From a virus, in the IMG/VR virus record IMGVR_UViG_3300009093_000138, positions 1-21,176 of that record: a stretch of 21,176 nucleotides of DNA. One strand, 5' to 3'. Under the pieces are notes generated by a model. It saw nothing but the letters and a program-made list of their open reading frames with translations, searched no databases and was not told the DNA's origin. Position numbers and translations under genes: made by a program. Position 1 is the first letter of the stretch. Each line of letters starts with the position of its first letter. This document shows, in pieces, positions 1 through 16,137 of the stretch.

Positions 1-660
1 GACGTTGCCGTTGAGGCTCACGCTCCCATCGAGAAACCACGTACCGTCGAGCACCTGCCCGCTCAGCACTCCCGCGATGCCGCCGCAGTGCGATCCCACG
101 CCCTTCATCAGGCGAATCGACCGGCGAATAAACGCGAGTTCGCCGGGGTCGATGCCGTCGTCCCACACGCTGCCATCGCCCCAGGTTCCGGCGTCCGACC
201 ACATGCCGTCGGTCGGCACCCAGAAGGCGTGCGGCTGTTTGATGACCACCCAGAACGTCGCCCACCCGTCCGCGGTGAGCCCGCACTGCCACGCCTCGAT
301 GACCTCGACGTTGGGGTACCCGCTGGCGTTGAGGTACAGCTGCAGGCCGATGGCCTGTCCGGCGAGGCGCCAGTACGTCCAGGCGTTGCGCAGCTTCTCG
401 CGGTGATGGGCCTCGCTCTCGCGCGGCCCGCGCTCCATGTGTCGTTCGATGGCAATCTGCAGGAGGCCATCGGGCGTCGCGTACGACGGCATGCGCTGGA
501 GGATCGCGTCGTAGGCCGACTGCACGATCGCGTCGAAGACGAGGCCGATGCTCTGCAGGTATCCCGCACCGAAGAAGCCGCGCAGCCACGCCGGCGCCTT
601 CTCGAGGATCATGTCGGCGTAGGGCATCCCCGAGGGAGCGGGCACGCCCGGAATCGTCAC
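1..660 (-). CDS. Tail protein I-like (Mu gp48-like), 3' end outside window
   Basis: GTG at 660 overlaps the J-like stop (GTGA). The frame is open through to the left edge, giving 220 residues with no stop, so the C-terminus is outside. Sequence: GMPYADMILEKAPAWLRGFF, IVQSAYDAILQRMPSYATPD, HHREKLRNAWTYWRLAGQA, LNASGYPNVEVIEAWQCG and WSDAGTWGDGSVWDDGIDPG, followed by ELAFIRRSIRLMKG. This matches I/gp48-type baseplate proteins whose C-terminal region carries W-x-D-G repeats. Mu fibre genes normally follow. The antisense frames here are shadows. Confidence 0.82.
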   Translation of the reverse strand, partial: MTIPGVPAPSGMPYADMILEKAPAWLRGFFGAGYLQSIGLVFDAIVQSAYDAILQRMPSYATPDGLLQIAIERHMERGPRESEAHHREKLRNAWTYWRLAGQAIGLQLYLNASGYPNVEVIEAWQCGLTADGWATFWVVIKQPHAFWVPTDGMWSDAGTWGDGSVWDDGIDPGELAFIRRSIRLMKGVGSHCGGIAGVLSGQVLDGTWFLDGSVSLNGNV

Positions 661-1874
661 GTGCCCACCCACGCGAAGCTCGTGATGCCGTCGTTGAGCG
701 AGATGACTCCGATCTCACCCGCGGCCGTCACGACGTCGTTCGCGGGCGCCGTGAGGTTCATGCTCACGGTCCCGTACGGAGCGCCCGCGCTGCGCGCGCC
801 GTCGACGATGGCCTCGTACAGGTCGGCAACCGTGACCTTGGCGCCGATGTCGAGCGCGGCCTGGAGCGAGACGAGGTTGGCGATGGCGTTCGCCTGCGCG
901 GCCGCGGCGTACTTCGTCGGCAGGCTGCACGTGCCGCCGAGCGTGATGGGATGCGCGGTCGCCGACTGCGCGGTGAGCTGCGTGCAGAGCGGTCGGCGCT
1001 TGAGCAGCGTGGCGCTGGCGGCGAGCGACGCGAGGCTGGGGTCGACGAAGTTCTGCACGGCCGTGACGACGCTGGAGTCCACGATGCCGATTGCGCCCGC
1101 GAGGAAGAGCTGCACCTGCCACGGGTTCGGCGAGCCCTCGTAGACCTTCGTGCGCGTGACCAGCGAGGACGCCGCGCGCGCCCATGCGTCGTACTGGAGC
1201 TCGGGGCCCATGCCGAGGAGCGGCAGCTGCCCCATGCAGCGCGCCTGCAGCGAGGGATCACCCTCCTCGTCCTGCCCCGACTGCGTGATCCACGACGTCA
1301 CGCCGCCGGCGTTCGTCACCGCGATGCCGGGGATGGGCGAGGCGAGCGACAGGATGGCGCCGTTCGGCACGTTGTACGCGCCGCCCGCGAACTCCGCCTG
1401 GAAGAGCGCCTGCACGCTGCCGTTGAGCGGCACGTTCGCTGAGCTGCCCGGTGTGCCGCCGAGGTTGCCCTGCAGGAGCTGGAAGCGCAGAGGCGCACCG
1501 TTGGCGTCCACGGCGTTCGCGATCGCGAACGTGCTGAACGCCGGAATCGAGATCGGCCCCACGCCCGCGACGTCGCTGAGCGTGAGGATGCCCTGCGTGA
1601 AGGTGGCCGGGTAGCGGTCCAGGCCGTACATCTGGTTTGCGACGAGTGTGAGCCAATCGCCGCCGGACAGGCTCGCAAAGCCGAGCGCCGCGATCTTCGC
1701 GATGGTGCTCGACTGGTCGCTGCCGATGCGCGCCACGAGCTCGGCGAAAGCGCGCCCTACGTTGAACGGGCCCCATGCGGTCGTGGGGAAGCCAGCGGCC
1801 TGCAGGAGGCCCGCGATCGTGCTCGTCACCTGCGCGAGCGTCTGTCCGCTGAGTAGGTTCGAGAGCGAGATCAC
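657..1874 (-). CDS. Baseplate J-like protein (Mu gp47)
   Basis: 405 residues, GTG start overlapping the gp46-like stop (GTGA). The J family (PF04865) pattern is visible: helical N-terminus with AFAELVARIGSDQSSTIAKI, LTLSDVAGVGPISIPAFSTF, AVDANGAPLRFQ, AGGAYNVPNGAILSL, ITQSGQDEEGDPSLQARC and then ASSLVTRTKVYEGSPNPWQV. C-terminal helical part (VSLQAALDIGAKVTVADLYE). It forms the baseplate wedge with gp46 and gp48. The stop overlaps the I-like GTG. Confidence 0.9.
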   Translation of the reverse strand: MISLSNLLSGQTLAQVTSTIAGLLQAAGFPTTAWGPFNVGRAFAELVARIGSDQSSTIAKIAALGFASLSGGDWLTLVANQMYGLDRYPATFTQGILTLSDVAGVGPISIPAFSTFAIANAVDANGAPLRFQLLQGNLGGTPGSSANVPLNGSVQALFQAEFAGGAYNVPNGAILSLASPIPGIAVTNAGGVTSWITQSGQDEEGDPSLQARCMGQLPLLGMGPELQYDAWARAASSLVTRTKVYEGSPNPWQVQLFLAGAIGIVDSSVVTAVQNFVDPSLASLAASATLLKRRPLCTQLTAQSATAHPITLGGTCSLPTKYAAAAQANAIANLVSLQAALDIGAKVTVADLYEAIVDGARSAGAPYGTVSMNLTAPANDVVTAAGEIGVISLNDGITSFAWVGT

Positions 1875-2269
1875 TGGACCTCCGCGAGGTAGGCCTCGAG
1901 CTTCGATACGCCGAAGATGAACGAGAACGGCTGGCCGGTGCTGAGCGTGCCGCTGAGCTTCACCGTGAGCGTCTCGGTGGCGTCACCCCACGACACGTCC
2001 GCGGTCGCCTGCGTGACGCGCTCGTCCTTCGACGCCTCGTCGGCGAGCTGTTGTTGGAGCTCGAAGACGCGCTGGTCGTCGATGCCGTCGTTGACCATCG
2101 CGACGAGGTCGAGACCGTCGTCGGGCGCCCACTCGAGGGATCCTCTCGCCGTAGTGAACCGGTGAAGCATGTCCTGCGCAACGAGCGCGGGGCCGCTCAC
2201 GAGCGAGAAGTTGGGGTCGACGTCGCCCGCGCACGCGATGTCCGTGCCGTAGTCGATGACATCCGGCAT
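1871..2269 (-). CDS. Mu gp46-like baseplate protein (gp25/W-like)
   Basis: 132 residues from the ATG at 2269 with a GGAG box; the earlier in-frame codon at 2311 lies inside the preceding gene and lacks a site. MPDVIDYGTDIACAGDVDPN and MLHRFTTARGSLEWAPDDGL are typical of gp46 (DUF2634/gp25-like), which connects the baseplate wedge to the tube. C-terminal strand SFIFGVSKLEAYLAEVQ. Its TGA is overlapped by the GTG of the J-like gene. Confidence 0.82.
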   Translation of the reverse strand: MPDVIDYGTDIACAGDVDPNFSLVSGPALVAQDMLHRFTTARGSLEWAPDDGLDLVAMVNDGIDDQRVFELQQQLADEASKDERVTQATADVSWGDATETLTVKLSGTLSTGQPFSFIFGVSKLEAYLAEVQ

Positions 2270-2277
2270 GGCGGCTC

Positions 2278-2985
2278 CTACGTGGAGAACAGGGCCTGCA
2301 GCGCCGTCCACGCGGCCGTGTCTTGCGTCGCGACGAGGACGACGGCGCCGACGTTCGTGGCGGGCGCGGCGCCGCCCGGGATGCCGCCGGCGACCGCGGC
2401 GACGAGCTCGGTGCCGAAGTTGGACAGCTGGCCGGTGTACGAGTATCCGTGCACGCCCGCGGTGGCGAATAGGCTCAGCAGGTTGACGAGCGTGAGCTGC
2501 ACGCCGGAGAGCGACGCCGCGCGCGCCTGGATAGCGGCGATGCGCGCCTGGATGCCGGCGACGCGCGCCGCGAGCGCCGAGACCTTGGCGGCGAGGCCCG
2601 TGACCTTCGCGACCGCGCTGGCGAGCGCGGACTCGAGGCTGGCGATGAACCCGGGTACACCGAGCGCGATGGCCTGGACGATCGAAAGGAGGAGCGTCCC
2701 GCTCGTGATCGAATCCGCGACGGCCTGCATCTGCGACGCAAAGCTCGACGCCGCGCCCGCGAGCTGGCCGGTGAGGTCGGTGACGATGCCCTGCGCGCTC
2801 GCGACGTCTGCCTCTGCGGCGCCCAGGTCGGCGAGAACGGCCTGCACGTCCTGCGTGAGCGCGAGGACGTCCTGCCCGAGCGCAGCCACCTCGGCGAGGA
2901 GCGCGAGGTTCGCGGGACCGATGCCGGACAGGACGGCGGGTTGAAACGTGCCGACGTTGCCGCCGCCCAGGTCGTGGATGGTCAT
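2278..2985 (-). CDS. Alanine-rich coiled-coil baseplate-region protein
   Basis: 235 residues; ATG overlaps the previous stop. Almost wholly alpha-helical: LALLAEVAALGQDVLALTQD, ASSFASQMQAVADSITSG, VSALAARVAGIQARIAAIQA and so on, with clear heptad spacing of hydrophobic residues (roughly residues 20-165). A Gly-rich segment separates a short C-terminal domain (YSYTGQLSNFGTELVAA...). It sits between the OB-fold pair and gp46-like gene, a place where no such protein occurs in Mu itself. A trimeric stalk or needle for the spike is possible. No domain recognised. Stop is TAG. Confidence 0.65.
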   Translation of the reverse strand: MTIHDLGGGNVGTFQPAVLSGIGPANLALLAEVAALGQDVLALTQDVQAVLADLGAAEADVASAQGIVTDLTGQLAGAASSFASQMQAVADSITSGTLLLSIVQAIALGVPGFIASLESALASAVAKVTGLAAKVSALAARVAGIQARIAAIQARAASLSGVQLTLVNLLSLFATAGVHGYSYTGQLSNFGTELVAAVAGGIPGGAAPATNVGAVVLVATQDTAAWTALQALFST

Positions 2986-3458
2986 GACGTCGCCAGCACC
3001 TTGCCGCTGCCCGCGGCCGCGACCCCCACGATGGGTGTCGTGATGGTCATCGTGGTTCCCGGGGGCACGGGGCTACTCGCGACCGAGCCCGTGACCAGCA
3101 TCAGCGGCGGCAGCGCGAGGGCCACGGGGTCACCCGATCGCACCACGCCGCGCGCGTTCCCCTTCCCCCCGAGGATGATCTGCACGACGTCGCCGGGTTC
3201 CCAGAGCGAGAACACGGGGCGCGATGGGTCGCCGTTCTCGAAGCCGAGCAGCCCGCGGGAGCCCTTGGCGACCTGCGCCGTCGTGCCGGGGAGGCCGTAT
3301 CGTAGGTCGGCCTTCATGCCTGGCACGCGCGGATCGTCCGGCTGGATCTCGACGGATTGACCGACCTGGCGCACGACCGTCGACGGGTAGAGGGCGAAGA
3401 AGTCGAAGCGCGCGACGAGCGAGCGGATGATGGCCGTGACGAACGTGGCGAACGTCAC
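2982..3458 (-). CDS. OB-fold spike/baseplate protein, second paralog (gp45-like)
   Basis: 158 residues from GTG at 3458 (GTGA overlap with the previous stop). It aligns along its length with the preceding protein: FFALYPSTVVRQ, VEIQPDDPRVPGMKADLRYG, LPGTTAQVAKGSRGLLGFE, PVFSLWEPGDVVQIILGG, GDPVALALPP and GKVLATS. The pair is a tandem duplication, with divergence concentrated in the middle. The upstream in-frame extension has shadow composition and was rejected. Its TGA overlaps the next ATG. Confidence 0.7.
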   Translation of the reverse strand: MTFATFVTAIIRSLVARFDFFALYPSTVVRQVGQSVEIQPDDPRVPGMKADLRYGLPGTTAQVAKGSRGLLGFENGDPSRPVFSLWEPGDVVQIILGGKGNARGVVRSGDPVALALPPLMLVTGSVASSPVPPGTTMTITTPIVGVAAAGSGKVLATS

Positions 3459-3946
3459 GAGACCGCTAGCACCTTGCTCGAGCCGCGCAGCCAGCTGCCC
3501 TTGAGCGTCACGGGCTGCGCGTTCGTGAGCGATAGGCCCGCGGCGACGTTGGTGAACACGATGCCGCCGGGGGGGATGGGTAGATCGTCGGGGCCGGGTG
3601 CCTGTACGGCGTCGCCGACGCACGCCACGGGCCGGCCGCCGTCGCCGCCGAGAGACACGCTGATCACGTCGTCGGCCGACACGAGGTAGGCGAACGGCGC
3701 TCGCGGCGAGCCGCCGGAAAAGCCCAGCTGCACGCGCGTGCCCGTCTTCACGCGCACGACCGCGCCGGGGATGCCGAGGCGGACGGGTACGTTGGTGGCC
3801 ACGGGCACGAGCGGCGAGTCCGGAAGCACGTCGACCGCGCCGTCGGCGCGCTGCGCGGTCACCTTGCCGGCGTAGAGAGCGAAGAGGCCGAGGCGCGCGA
3901 GGCGCACGCTCGCGAGGGCGCGTACGAAGGCCAGGGTGTTACTCAA
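3455..3946 (-). CDS. OB-fold spike/baseplate protein, first paralog (gp45-like)
   Basis: 163 residues from the TTG at 3946, which overlaps the hub stop (TTGAGTAA). Start chosen because the N-terminus then aligns with the following paralog to within one residue. Pattern: FALYAGKVTAQR, VDVLPDSPLVP, VRLGIPGAVVRVKTGTRVQL, APFAYLVSADDVISVSLGGD and C-terminal SSKVLAVS. This is the OB-fold type of phage spike/baseplate protein (Mu gp45/gpV class). No His-rich iron-binding tip is seen. Confidence 0.7.
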   Translation of the reverse strand: MSNTLAFVRALASVRLARLGLFALYAGKVTAQRADGAVDVLPDSPLVPVATNVPVRLGIPGAVVRVKTGTRVQLGFSGGSPRAPFAYLVSADDVISVSLGGDGGRPVACVGDAVQAPGPDDLPIPPGGIVFTNVAAGLSLTNAQPVTLKGSWLRGSSKVLAVS

Positions 3947-4598
3947 AGTAGGCCTCCGTACGCACGGCGTCGTCGCCGATGAGGTGCTCGACGTACCCGA
4001 CCTTTTGACCAAGGAACGTCACGCCGGGTAGCAGCCACGGATCCTCGCAGCTGATCTGCACGTACTGGCGGTCGCCTCGCTCGTCGAGGAGCGTGAACAC
4101 CGGGGCGTCTACGCCCGAACTCGGGACCGTGGGGAACGTGTCGGTGCCGACCCAGATCGTGCCGTCGGCCTGTACGCGCCACGTGGCGCCGAGCTCGTTC
4201 GCGACCTGGTCGACGCCGAACGACGCGGGCCCGGTGAACATCGCCCATCGCGCGAACACCGTGGCCGTGGCCGCGGCGTCGCTCGCCGAGGACAGCGTCT
4301 CGCCGACCTGCGCGACGATGTCGCTGAGCACCGACTTGGCGGTCGCCTGTTCCCAGTACTTCTTCTGCACCGTCTTCGGCAGGCCCGCGCCGCCGCCGAC
4401 GATGCGCGCCTGGAAGACGCCGCGCACGACCGCGGAGTCCACGATCGTGCCCACGAAGGTCACGCCCGTCGACGCCTGCAGCGTGATCTTGCCCGCGAGG
4501 AGCTCGGGGGTCATGAGCTCGACGTCGCCCGTCCACACGCCCTGCCTCGGCATCGCGAAGCGAGCCTTGAGAACGGGAACGCCGCCGTCGGTTTGCAT
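3939..4598 (-). CDS. Baseplate hub protein (Mu P/gp44-like)
   Basis: 219 residues, ATG one base after the previous stop. Beta-strand-rich start (VPVLKARFAMPRQGVWTGD, ITLQASTGVTFVGTIVDSAV), then QKKYWEQATAKSVLSDIVAQ, a helical part and TWRVQADGTIWVGTDTFP. The C-terminal WLLPGVTFLGQKVGYVEH and the terminal acidic/aromatic end are typical of gpD/gp27-type hub proteins, which form the trimeric hub that carries the spike. The protein is shorter than T4 gp27, consistent with Mu-like hubs. Its TAA stop overlaps the TTG start of the next gene by eight bases. Confidence 0.7.
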   Translation of the reverse strand: MQTDGGVPVLKARFAMPRQGVWTGDVELMTPELLAGKITLQASTGVTFVGTIVDSAVVRGVFQARIVGGGAGLPKTVQKKYWEQATAKSVLSDIVAQVGETLSSASDAAATATVFARWAMFTGPASFGVDQVANELGATWRVQADGTIWVGTDTFPTVPSSGVDAPVFTLLDERGDRQYVQISCEDPWLLPGVTFLGQKVGYVEHLIGDDAVRTEAYFE

Positions 4599-4599
4599 G

Positions 4600-5241
4600 C
4601 TACCTGCCGAAGAATCCGCGAGCTCCGCCGGCGGGCACGGGCGGCCTCGAGGCGACGGTCGACGATGGCGGCGGGTTGGCGTAGCTGCCGTCGGCGCGCT
4701 GCTGCAGGACGTTCTGCGGCACCTTGCCTGGGTCGCGCGAGCCGATGGTGCGCGTCACGTCCTTCTTCGGCGGGAAGTACTCGTAACAGTCGATCTCGAT
4801 GACGTAGCCGTCCTTCGTGTATTTCGGTCCCTTGATCTTGTGCGGGAGGATCGACCTCACGCCCCATAGCGCGGCGACGGGATGCTGAATGTCGAGCTTC
4901 TGGACGTTGCCGATGTTGCCGCTGGGTCGGAAGTAGAAGGCGATGGCCTGGAAGGCCTCCCATTCTTCCTTCGTCGACAACGTCGTCTTGATCTTCACCT
5001 TCGCGGGCGCGGGCCCGTCGTCGGTGATGCTCGCGCCCGGCCGACCCTTCGGCTTGTTCACGTCGAGGCGCTGCTCGGGGTCCACGTCGACCGTAGACAC
5101 GCCGGGGATCGTGAACTTCTGCCCCTGCTGCGGCGTGAGCACGACGCTGTCCCACGTCTTCGGCTGATCGTCCCAAAAGGGGATTCGTAGCGGCGCCGCA
5201 GGGGCCGGGCCCGTCGTCTTCGGAAGCGTGGGACCAGGCAT
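4600..5241 (-). CDS. Baseplate/hub-adaptor protein (Mu N position)
   Basis: 213 residues; starts two bases after the tape measure TAG. Proline-rich N-terminus, then LRIPFWDDQPKTWDSVVLTP, FTIPGVSTVDVDPEQRLDV, KVKIKTTLSTKEEWEAF and YVIEIDCYEYFPPKKDVTR: a beta-rich protein of the baseplate-hub adaptor type (N/LysM-type proteins that follow tape measures). C-terminal 40 residues are Pro/Gly-rich and disordered. No peptidoglycan hydrolase motif. Function is inferred from order. Stop is TAG. Confidence 0.6.
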   Translation of the reverse strand: MPGPTLPKTTGPAPAAPLRIPFWDDQPKTWDSVVLTPQQGQKFTIPGVSTVDVDPEQRLDVNKPKGRPGASITDDGPAPAKVKIKTTLSTKEEWEAFQAIAFYFRPSGNIGNVQKLDIQHPVAALWGVRSILPHKIKGPKYTKDGYVIEIDCYEYFPPKKDVTRTIGSRDPGKVPQNVLQQRADGSYANPPPSSTVASRPPVPAGGARGFFGR

Positions 5242-5243
5242 CG

Positions 5244-7226
5244 CTACATCGCTCCGCTCTGCGCCGCGGCGTCGCGCGCGGCCGCAGCGCCAGCGCCTCG
5301 GTTCACGCTCTCGTTGATGGCTTGCCCGACGCCCTCGCCGATCTTCTTCGCGTCGCCCTCCGTCTTCACGGTGACGCCGCCGACCTCGACGTGGATCGAC
5401 TGCTGGAGCTGTCCCTTTGCCTTGTCATTCAGGACGCTCCACCACGGCGACGACGAGTCCTGAGCGGGCGCGTTGGGCGCGAACTTGACGCCCGACTCCT
5501 TGAGCGTCTGCTCGAACATGTTCTTTTGGAACTCGAGGAAGTACTCCCGCTGCCGAGCGATATCGTCCGAGTGCGGAATGATCGTGGCGTTCGTGAACGC
5601 ATCGACCTTCGAGTTCGAAAGATCTTTGATTTGCTCGTCGTAGCCGCCTCGACGCACGCTGAGCTCGAACTGATCTTTGAGTTGCTGGAGCGTGACGTCG
5701 CCCTCTTGCCCCGACCTCTGCATCGCGGCGTGCTTCGACCCAAACCCCTTGGCGACGCTCATTAGATCCGCGTCGCTGCCCGCGTAATCCTCGGCCGTGG
5801 GGTTGGTCGAGAAGTAGTCGTGGATCGATTTGATCGCTTTCACGACCTCGCCGAGGACGCTAGCGAGCGTCTTGCCGAAGCTGATGGCGGTCTCGAAGAA
5901 GTCCTGGATACCGCTCTTGCCGTTCGGCCCCACCTTGGTCATGTCGGTGAGGATGTTGAACACGCTGGAGAGGATGTCCTGCAGCGCGTGACTCGCCGCC
6001 GGCGTCTCGAGCATGCCGCGCACATCCCTCAGGAAGTCGATGACGGGCTGGACGTTCACGCCCTCGAGGAGCTCGTCGAGCGAGACCTTCAGCGCATTGA
6101 GGCCACCGCCCACGGTGTTGGCCGTGATGTCCGCCTGCGTGGCGCCGAGGACGCCCGTGCGCTCGACCTTGGAATTGATCGCCTGCAGCGCCGCCTGGAT
6201 GACGTCGCCCTCGCTCACGATTCCCTGATGCAGCTTCTGCTTCGCCACATCCGTCGTTGTGCCGAACATCTTCCCGAGCTGGGCTTCGATGGCCTCGGGC
6301 GCGATGCCCAGGTGCTCTAGACCCATGAGCGCGCCGGTCGAAAGCTTCCCGCCCTTGTCTCGCTGGCGCTCCAGCTTGTCGATGAACTGCTCGATGGTCT
6401 TCAGGCCGCCCTTGGGGTCGCCCATGATGTCGCCCAAGGCCATGCCGCCGGAGATGATTCCGCGAATGCTCTCGACCTGAAACCCGACGTTTCGCAGGTG
6501 CAGGTACGTCTTCTCCAGGATCTCGGGCGCGATCCCGAGGTCCTTCGCCGCTTCCTTCATCTCTTGGAAGGCCTCGACACCTCGGCCAGTGGCGCGTTCA
6601 GCGATGTCGAACGCCGCTCCCATCTGCACGCCCCAGTCGTGCGCGTGGATGGCGTCCGCAAGCAGTTCCTCGCCCACCTCGATGAGATTGCCGATGACGG
6701 CACCGACGATGTTGAGGGTGGCGTCGAACGCCATGTTCAGCGCGCCGACTGCGACGCCGGCCTTTACTAGGTCGCCGAGTCCAACCTGCGCCGCCACGTG
6801 GTCGACGATGCCACGCACCTGCTTCCAGTTCTCGACGTCCTCTTTCCCCGGCGAGTGCGAGCCGCCGCCGCTCGCGCCGCCGCCACCTCTCATCAGGTAG
6901 CTGGCGTCGCTCGGTCCGCCCTTAGCCATGGTGCGGTACGCCTCGAGGACGCCCGCGTGTCCGCCCGCTGCACCCGCGGCCTTCGGCGCGCCGAAGTCCC
7001 CGGACTCGAGGTCGATGCCGAATAAATCCTCGATGCCCTTCTTGTCGACCTTGAGCTGCCTCGACTGGCCGGCGACCGTCTTCAGGGTCTCGTTGAGCTT
7101 CTTCACCTGCGCGTCGGCGCGGTCGGCTCCGCCCGTGATGGCGTCGATCGACTGCTTGATCTCGTTCGCGGGCCCCGTGAGCTCGTTGACGAGCTCGACT
7201 TCCCAGGAAGTACTCTCGTCGGGCAT
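5244..7226 (-). CDS. Tail tape measure protein
   Basis: 660 residues, ATG start. An N-terminal helical, coiled-coil-like region (EIKQSIDAITGGADRADAQV, about 20-60) and Gly/Ser-rich region (about 110-130) precede a hydrophobic stretch at about 153-182 (LVKAGVAVGALNMAFDATLN), typical of tape measures. The rest is long alpha-helical sequence with repeated FFETAISFGKTLASV and DVRGMLETPA segments. It sets tail length; by the usual rule of about 0.15 nm per residue the tail would be near 100 nm. No lysozyme or peptidase domain is visible in it. It ends in TAG. Confidence 0.9.
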   Translation of the reverse strand: MPDESTSWEVELVNELTGPANEIKQSIDAITGGADRADAQVKKLNETLKTVAGQSRQLKVDKKGIEDLFGIDLESGDFGAPKAAGAAGGHAGVLEAYRTMAKGGPSDASYLMRGGGGASGGGSHSPGKEDVENWKQVRGIVDHVAAQVGLGDLVKAGVAVGALNMAFDATLNIVGAVIGNLIEVGEELLADAIHAHDWGVQMGAAFDIAERATGRGVEAFQEMKEAAKDLGIAPEILEKTYLHLRNVGFQVESIRGIISGGMALGDIMGDPKGGLKTIEQFIDKLERQRDKGGKLSTGALMGLEHLGIAPEAIEAQLGKMFGTTTDVAKQKLHQGIVSEGDVIQAALQAINSKVERTGVLGATQADITANTVGGGLNALKVSLDELLEGVNVQPVIDFLRDVRGMLETPAASHALQDILSSVFNILTDMTKVGPNGKSGIQDFFETAISFGKTLASVLGEVVKAIKSIHDYFSTNPTAEDYAGSDADLMSVAKGFGSKHAAMQRSGQEGDVTLQQLKDQFELSVRRGGYDEQIKDLSNSKVDAFTNATIIPHSDDIARQREYFLEFQKNMFEQTLKESGVKFAPNAPAQDSSSPWWSVLNDKAKGQLQQSIHVEVGGVTVKTEGDAKKIGEGVGQAINESVNRGAGAAAARDAAAQSGAM

Positions 7227-14414: not shown

Positions 14415-15098
14415 TCAGCCAGCGGCGAGGCGCGCGCCCGGCGCGGCCTTCACGGGGAGGTTCAGCGCGACGATGTCGCCGTCGTTGAGGCCCGCGGCCT
14501 TCATCTGCAGCGGCGTGAGCGACGCGGGGATGCCGCGCGGGAACTTCTTCACGAGCTTGCGGTTCGCCACGTAGGACTCGGGCGTCACACCGAGCTTCTC
14601 GATGGTCTCGAGCTCCTCGGCGCTGAGGTCGGTGTCGTTCACTGTGCCTCCCTGCGTGGCACCCGCGGCCACGGTGCCGCCGCCGTCCTGCGGCTTCAGC
14701 TGCTGGCGCGGCTCCGGGAGGACGAGCGGCGGGCGCGTCGCGAGGTAGTTGTCGAACGCCTTGTCGCTCTCCATACCGAGCGAGATCGCGAAGTCGCGCT
14801 CGGCCGGCGCGATCTTCTTGTCGGCGATGAGCTTGTCGACGCGGCCGGTGAGCGTCTGCTTCTTCGCCTCGGCCTTCGACGCCGCGAGGTCGGTCGAGAG
14901 CTGCTGGATCTTGGTGCCCGACGTCGCTGCGTCGTTCTTCCAGACCTTCACCTGCGCGACGGCGTCGCGGGGCTCGTCGATGCCCGTGAGCTCGACGATG
15001 TCCTCCATCGTGCGCCCTAGCGCCTGAATGGCCGCGAGCACCTCGGCCTCGCTCGCCGTCTCCGAAAGCCCCAGCGCCGCCAGAATGAGCTTGTTCAT
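14415..15098 (-). CDS. Scaffold-like head assembly protein (Mu Z position)
   Basis: 227 residues from the ATG at 15098, preceded by a GGAGAG ribosome-binding site. The longer in-frame extension upstream lies inside the protease gene and has shadow-type composition, so it was rejected. The protein begins MNKLILAALGLSETASEAEV, has a helical, charged, coiled-coil-like middle (QQLSTDLAASKAEAKKQTLT) with the pattern of phage proteins cut by I-type proteases, and ends in a proline- and alanine-rich segment. It lies between protease and decoration/capsid genes, the place of the Mu scaffold Z. The C-terminal part has a conserved-looking LSAEELETIEKLGVTPESY segment. Scaffold role is inferred from position and composition. 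Confidence 0.75.
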   Translation of the reverse strand: MNKLILAALGLSETASEAEVLAAIQALGRTMEDIVELTGIDEPRDAVAQVKVWKNDAATSGTKIQQLSTDLAASKAEAKKQTLTGRVDKLIADKKIAPAERDFAISLGMESDKAFDNYLATRPPLVLPEPRQQLKPQDGGGTVAAGATQGGTVNDTDLSAEELETIEKLGVTPESYVANRKLVKKFPRGIPASLTPLQMKAAGLNDGDIVALNLPVKAAPGARLAAG

Positions 15099-15141
15099 CG
15101 TGTCTCTCCGTCGTCTGTCGGCGCTCGGGCGGGCGCGCGCG

Positions 15142-16137
15142 TCACTTGGTGGGCCGGTGGAATCGGCCGGTTGGCTTGTGACGAGGGTGCTTGTCCGTCG
15201 CGAACTTCTTCCGCGGCGGCGTTGCCGTCGTCTTCGTCGCGTTCTCGTCCCACGGCGGGGACATGCCGAAGAGCGCGAACTCCTTGGCGAGGTGGGTGCG
15301 TACGGACTCGAAGTCGGCCTCGGGCACCACGGCGTTGCCCGCCACGACCTGGCGGCCAGCCTCGATGAGCGCAGGCCTGGACACCACGAGCTCGCCGGCG
15401 ATGGCGTCGTGGTGGAGGAGCCGGTAGTCGCCGAGGTTCTCCGGCGAGCGCGGGTCGTACCAGGCAAACGCCTTGCGATATAGCTCGAGGTCGAGCGTGC
15501 CGGGTTGCCCCGAGCCGTCGCGCGAGGCCCACGAGCGCACGCGCCGGAGGTTCTCCGCCGCGTCGTAGACGAGGAACGGGTCGTACGTCGGCGTGGCCTC
15601 GAAGCTCACCGTGCCGCTCGGGGCGTTCGGGGCATCGGTCTGCGCGCCCTGCTGGTCATCGGCGAGGAGCAGTCCGCCGGCGAGCGGCACGAGCGGCTGC
15701 GCGTTGCACGTCGCCGGCGTCGAGGTCAGTGCGACGTTCAGGATCTCGGTGACGACGCCCTCTTCGTGCATGAAGAGCGGGCTGACGTACCGGACTTCCT
15801 TCGCGAGGATGCGCTGGCGCGCGAGGTCCGTGTACCGGACGTCGACGGCATGCAGCTCGTCGTTCGCCACCGCGAGCCGGAACCACCCCGCGGCCATCTT
15901 CTGATGCCCGGGGATGAACGGGTTGAGGATGTCGTGCTCGTAGTCGAACGAGTAGTCGTTTCCCCAGTCGGCCGCCGACGCCATGACGCGCTTGACGCTC
16001 TCGCCGTCGAAGGTGAAGTCGCCCTTCTTCGTGCGGTTCGTTCCCGCGCGAAAGAGTCGGATGTCGGTCGGCAGCTGGTCGCCGATGAGCCCGGACAGCA
16101 GGTCGATGGCCAGCGCCGCGCGTTCGGGTTTCGCCAT
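15142..16137 (-). CDS. Mu I-like prohead protease with extra C-terminal domain
   Basis: Capsid maturation protease of the Mu gpI type. 331 residues, ATG start with a weak GAGG eight bases upstream. The protease part (about 1-150) has FTFDGESVKRVMAS, the DYEH box at 65-68, GHQKMAAGW (77-85), KEVRYVSPLF (113-122) and LNVALTSTPA (133-142), all typical. Instead of the usual low-complexity scaffold tail, residues about 186-297 form a second domain: DAAENLRRVRSWAS, YRKAFAWYDP, LHHDAIAGELVVSR and MSPPW. I recognise this second domain as a conserved module seen in other phage head proteins, function unknown. A basic tail (KKFATDKHPRHKPTGR) closes the protein. The scaffold function is probably in the following gene. 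Confidence 0.88.
   Translation of the reverse strand: MAKPERAALAIDLLSGLIGDQLPTDIRLFRAGTNRTKKGDFTFDGESVKRVMASAADWGNDYSFDYEHDILNPFIPGHQKMAAGWFRLAVANDELHAVDVRYTDLARQRILAKEVRYVSPLFMHEEGVVTEILNVALTSTPATCNAQPLVPLAGGLLLADDQQGAQTDAPNAPSGTVSFEATPTYDPFLVYDAAENLRRVRSWASRDGSGQPGTLDLELYRKAFAWYDPRSPENLGDYRLLHHDAIAGELVVSRPALIEAGRQVVAGNAVVPEADFESVRTHLAKEFALFGMSPPWDENATKTTATPPRKKFATDKHPRHKPTGRFHRPTK

Follow-up and report, generated by a model that had tools for sequence, protein, structure and literature searches.

Why would a contractile-tailed phage carry two neighbouring spike-like genes, when simple contractile tails are assumed to have a homotrimeric central spike made from one gene? This question is raised by a virus record from soil, IMGVR_UViG_3300009093_000138, whose 21,176 nucleotides are called here the window and whose source phage is Mu-like. 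Both genes lie on the minus strand. Gene A, the upstream copy (3455..3946; 163 residues), runs from a TTG start at 3946 to a stop at 3455, and gene B, the downstream copy (2982..3458; 158 residues), from a GTG start at 3458 to a stop at 2982.

Genomic Context of the Pair

The window holds a minus-strand late operon, in the order terminase, Mu portal, protein F, Mu protease I, gpT capsid, sheath, tube, tape measure, gp43-type gene, hub, A, B, coiled-coil-like gene, gp46, gp47/J and the start of gp48; the names of the sheath, tube, hub, gp43 and gp48 rest mainly on gene order. Pfam matches to Mu-type head and portal genes (Mu-like_gpT, E = 3e-82; Portal_Mu, E = 2e-47; Phage_Mu_F; Mu-like_Pro), together with Baseplate_J and the hub, give the window, judged from its genes, the character of a Mu-like myophage. 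The Mu protease I profile hits two frames within 14415-16137, the N-terminal part in 15142-16137 and the C-terminal part near 14418-15077.

Around the pair, with all genes on the minus strand, the tape measure protein (5244..7226; TMP_3, E = 3e-4, under the curated cut-off) is followed by a gp43-type gene at the tube initiator position (4600..5241), which is identified from gene order and kept in relatives, and by the gp44-type hub (3939..4598), whose homologues in relatives adjoin the spike gene or are fused with it. Beyond A and B come a helix-rich, coiled-coil-like protein (2278..2985), a gp46-type (gp25-like) baseplate wedge protein (1871..2311; phrog_975, E = 1.5e-5, and gene order), the gp47/Baseplate_J wedge protein (657..1874; E = 4e-19 and E = 3e-31 in two profile searches) and a gp48-type wedge gene (1..672), which is identified from gene order and leaves the window incomplete. 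A homologue of the coiled-coil-like gene stands beside every complete two-copy locus described below, and also in the single-copy L008, L009, L041, L042, L045, L081 and L082.

The stop of the hub gene and the start of A overlap by 8 bp, the stop of A and the start of B by GTGA, and the stop of B and the start of the coiled-coil-like gene by ATGA. Because of these consecutive start/stop overlaps, the four genes are probably translationally coupled.

A Genuine Pair of Homologous Genes

The original prediction took the neighbouring genes at 2982-3946 for tandem duplicates that align along their length, and pairwise alignment bears this out. A and B are adjacent paralogues with 36% identity across 163 columns in BLASTP (E = 4e-19), or 37% in MAFFT, and their homology spans the full length of both proteins. 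Their third-position G+C of 0.91 is of the coding type, and the codon-position values (0.73/0.54/0.91 for A, 0.67/0.53/0.91 for B) are similar to those of neighbouring genes. The longest DNA run common to A and B is only 11 bp, so that an assembly or sequencing duplicate is ruled out; recent gene conversion within the pair is ruled out as well, long identical DNA being absent. The window is also covered over 17,738 bp, with 7 mismatches, by a second contig (3300025913_000118; L010/L032). It confirms A and the A/B junction, ends at or just inside the start of B and, in the other direction, extends at least 2.2 kb past the end of the window.

Most of the motifs by which the pair had been recognized are present as described (FALY, PDxPxVP, GxPG, LGF, DVxxxxLGG and KVLAxS), the exception being KGxR, which reads KTGTR in A. 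Since ALYP, PDxP, LPG, LGFExGDP and the C-terminal GSxKV are conserved among single-copy relatives as well, most of these motifs mark the family rather than the pair.

Predicted Fold and Spike Identity

The AlphaFold model of A, built with 48 sequences, has an overall pLDDT of 83, with most of the OB region above 94; the OB region of the B model reaches about 67-87. Both models are made of an N-terminal helix, an OB fold and a short C-terminal tip, and the helix and seven OB strands match one to one. The possibility of two different folds was checked on these predicted structures, and the folds are the same. The C-terminal 60 residues of both proteins, where a triple beta-helix would be expected in a gp45/gpV-type spike, are of low confidence in these monomer models. 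The best PDB match of A is chain V of the Mu baseplate (9ki1_V), with P2 gpV (3qr8) in rank 2, the R2-pyocin spike (4s37) in rank 4 and a proteasome OB domain between them; as the E-values are only 0.01 to 0.1, this ranking weighs more than the single values. The PDB matches of B are the PVC, P1 and pyocin spikes, mixed with other OB folds. Against PDB sequences, the family profile finds VgrG proteins on top (E = 0.02), through their gp5-like OB region.

No convincing match naming A or B was found among the Pfam and PHROG profiles. When 48 family members were considered at E up to 0.1, DUF6484 was the commonest Pfam match (37/48, best E = 2e-5) and Phage_base_V was matched by 10/48; the DUF6484 profile leaves A unmatched and gives B 16.1 bits, under the curated cut-off of 27.6. 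The spike gene is placed directly between the hub and gp46/gp47, and the same hub-spike-(coil)-gp46-gp47 order is found in relatives. The predicted structures of both proteins, the Pfam matches in relatives, the gene order and the hub-spike fusions described below thus agree with the OB-fold spike type first proposed. Judged from sequence and models, A and B are short central-spike proteins of the gp45/gpV type, presumably trimeric, and almost certainly the products of two paralogous spike genes.

The DUF6484 matches bring in the main rival to the heteromeric spike preferred below. One copy would be the virion spike, and the other a TvpC-like assembly placeholder or chaperone, an OB and short beta-prism mimic that templates the tip and is then replaced. 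TvpC, an OB/beta-prism protein (DUF6484 in class II), forms a pre-complex from which it is displaced by VgrG, and the same is predicted for DUF6484 proteins (PMC13373197); the faster divergence of one copy per pair would also suit such a role. However, the DUF6484 matches are weak and extend to single-copy relatives, whose protein must be the spike itself. Moreover, neither PAAR nor DUF2169 was seen among the Pfam-scanned genes of the window, which is a fragment, and both copies retain the helix-OB-tip layout, so that we regard a placeholder role as rather unlikely.

A Tip Without Histidine

Histidine is absent from the whole sequences of both A and B. The two proteins have therefore no HxH iron apex, for which reason the pair is counted as a variant spike rather than as a plain gp45/gpV member. 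Most members of the family are without HxH, which is carried in the tip region by Mx4, L020, L024 and L027. A VARxGD motif is found near the C-terminal end in many family members; A (VACVGD) and B (VVRSGD) have degenerate versions of it. A PAAR-like tip formed by this motif is only hinted at: Pfam PAAR matches 2/48 family members (best E = 0.067), and the tip-motif PDB match 4jiv_D, a PAAR protein, comes at E = 0.02, with a lectin scoring equally.

Copy Number and Hub-Spike Fusions in Relatives

In tblastn searches, A and B both match one same single gene at the spike position in Mx4, Riverbug and MMP7/MMP17. The survey of one- and two-copy loci called for by the original prediction covered 50 whole records, 47 of which had a family match. 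Most are single-copy (39/47); two tandem copies occur in 7/47, namely the window plus six others (L005, L038, L073, L075, L076 and L077), and the last one is a truncated contig nearly identical to the window. As the records were collected because they resemble family members, the two-copy proportion is no census. L074, cut inside its second copy, adds to the two-copy set, as probably does L096, where a downstream-type copy lies at the contig start. Since the L075 and L076 copies are identical, the other two-copy clade amounts to five complete lineages plus L074. No spike family member was found in the capsid relatives L033-L035, a search for kin using gp47 gave no matches, and no report of duplicated phage spike genes was found among the open-access papers searched.

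Some loci show further peculiarities. An HNH-endonuclease-like frame (L005 5471-5983), recognized by eye, directly precedes the first spike copy of that locus. In the single record of L028 and L071, the spike gene is broken over two frames, through a frameshift or a sequencing error, and the hub and gp47 matches are likewise broken.

Hub and spike domains are joined in one stop-free frame in about ten distinct lineages, at 17 loci (among them L004 1759-3015; L044, L049, L050-L053, L084, L085 and L092-L095, as well as L086 and L089, whose matches show just a short hub or spike stretch). Such fusions imply one spike seat per hub chain, the family sitting directly on the hub.

Number and Timing of the Duplications

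A tree of 53 family members unites the upstream copies from the other two-copy phages in one clade (support 99/94) and their downstream copies in another (97/98), so that this duplication predates the split of these phages. The window A and B fall outside both clades. Under LG+F+G4, the best topology has A and B as sisters (AU 0.695), a grouping whose own branch support is weak (70/0). A shared duplication, placing A with the upstream copies and B with the downstream ones, is rejected by the AU test (p = 0.004), as are the swapped pairing (p = 1e-5) and all pairs as one clade (p = 0.029); the SH test, which is more conservative, does not reject these three alternatives (p = 0.06-0.15). Single constraints under a mixture model are weaker, with 0.17 for A+a, 0.24 for A+b, 0.078 for B+b and 0.035 for B+a, and A alone with either clade stays unrejected because its branch is long. 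As the topology tests reject a shared origin, duplication has probably taken place at least twice. At least two separate events, in the window lineage and in the L005/L038/L073/L074/L075/L077 clade, are the favoured reading of these alignments; early gene conversion could mimic them.

Divergence and Likeness Within the Pairs

Divergence was scored against a profile of the single-copy members. In the other clade, upstream copies reach 142-160 bits and downstream copies 75-102 bits; in the window, B reaches 116 bits and A 97 bits. One copy per pair thus remains spike-like while its partner drifts, the drifting copy being the upstream one, A, in the window. Both copies of every pair retain the helix, the OB fold and the tip. 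A copy that diverges faster might also be a redundant duplicate on its way to loss, or a component now used elsewhere in the particle, for example in the collar. Yet the other clade has maintained its pairs in at least five complete lineages, both window copies have a normal codon signature, and the site belongs to the baseplate block rather than to the neck block; loss or relocation looks very improbable. The collar or receptor module suggested at the outset is unsupported, both copies being helix-OB-tip proteins encoded between the hub and gp46.

In the other clade, whose five complete pairs do not include that of the window, copies are more similar within a phage than across phages. The true pairing ranks 1/120 when scored over the whole protein, over the helix or over the tip, and 3/120 over the OB fold. 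The helix is the most similar part between paralogues in four of these five pairs and tied in the fifth; that of the window pair, at 32% identity, is no more similar than the rest. This within-phage likeness is unexpected from a plain tree and an old duplication, since all pairings should then sum to about the same value. It suggests co-evolution, shared partners (hub, tape measure) or old conversion.

Two Products for a Three-Fold Site

Two gene products on a site of three-fold symmetry do not make a symmetric complex. Given the three-fold docking on the hub, A and B would share the seats, alternate, stack, or leave one product to act off the virion. Sharing, which agrees with the heteromeric spike suggested at the outset, is ranked first because both proteins keep the parts of a seated subunit and are probably co-translated, and because the other clade shows a within-phage correlation of its copies. 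According to this scenario, a tandem duplication in the window lineage would have produced two spike genes, both kept working, which then diverged. Both products would enter the baseplate, and thus be present in the virion, where they would together occupy the three spike seats beneath the trimeric hub. The result would be a heterotrimeric spike with an asymmetric tip, its 2:1 subunit ratio being a guess. VgrG heterotrimers of the type VI secretion system (T6SS) provide a precedent for such a mixed spike (PMC10433429). A probability of roughly 0.45 is assigned to A and B forming together a heteromeric spike, and likewise to the whole explanation, with its paralogous spikes, separate duplication and mixed spike.

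If the two products alternated, each virion would hold three A or three B, in a mixed population possibly suited to different envelopes. A and B are each complete enough for this, with helix, OB fold and tip, but the gene overlap suggests joint expression, no switch was seen, and independent trimers are not expected to give the within-phage correlation, though shared partners could. Such alternative homotrimers are judged unlikely. In a stack, the hub would bear one trimer, with the second beneath it, and the two OB trimers in series would keep three-fold symmetry. An inner trimer, however, needs no tip and an outer one no hub-facing helix, whereas the C-terminal ends of the two copies are similar and the N-terminal helix is present in both, which makes a stacked spike improbable.

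Returning to the heteromeric spike, a similar and separate doubling in a second phage group suggests that some phage spikes may combine two different subunits. More doubtful, and put forward only tentatively, is the wider proposal that phages at least twice independently converted a central spike of three identical chains into a two-gene heteromer with an asymmetric, non-iron tip. Spike heteromers and spike-mimic assembly factors are already known from type VI secretion, and the repeated, separate origin and long retention of such pairs suggest that one or the other exists in phages too.

Comparison with Known Systems

P2 gpV and the R2-pyocin spike are each encoded by a single gene and end in an iron-bound HxH apex. 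The window spikes have in common with them (3qr8, 4s37) the OB fold and the position in a contractile tail, and differ by the absence of this apex from A and B. Mu gp45 (PMC11915804; PDB 9ki1) is similar in its OB fold and in its gene position, after the hub gp44 and before gp46/gp47. It is, however, a trimeric spike from one gene, with a beta-helix and an apex that binds Fe and Ca, whereas the window has two shorter genes without histidine.

VgrG of the T6SS is related through its gp5-like OB region, matched by the family profile, and the hub-spike fusions of relatives resemble its layout; in the window, by contrast, hub and spikes are separate genes, each spike having about 160 residues and a short tip. 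TvpC and DUF6484 proteins (PMC13373197) combine an OB fold with a short beta-prism and, as here, add another OB/prism protein to the one forming the true spike, but they accompany DUF2169 and PAAR in T6SS loci, whereas the window pair lies in a phage baseplate operon. Finally, Myxococcus phage Mx4 p62, Thermus phage Riverbug gene 12 and Meiothermus phage MMP17 offer a homologous spike in the same gene order, in a single copy, with an HVH motif in the Mx4 protein.
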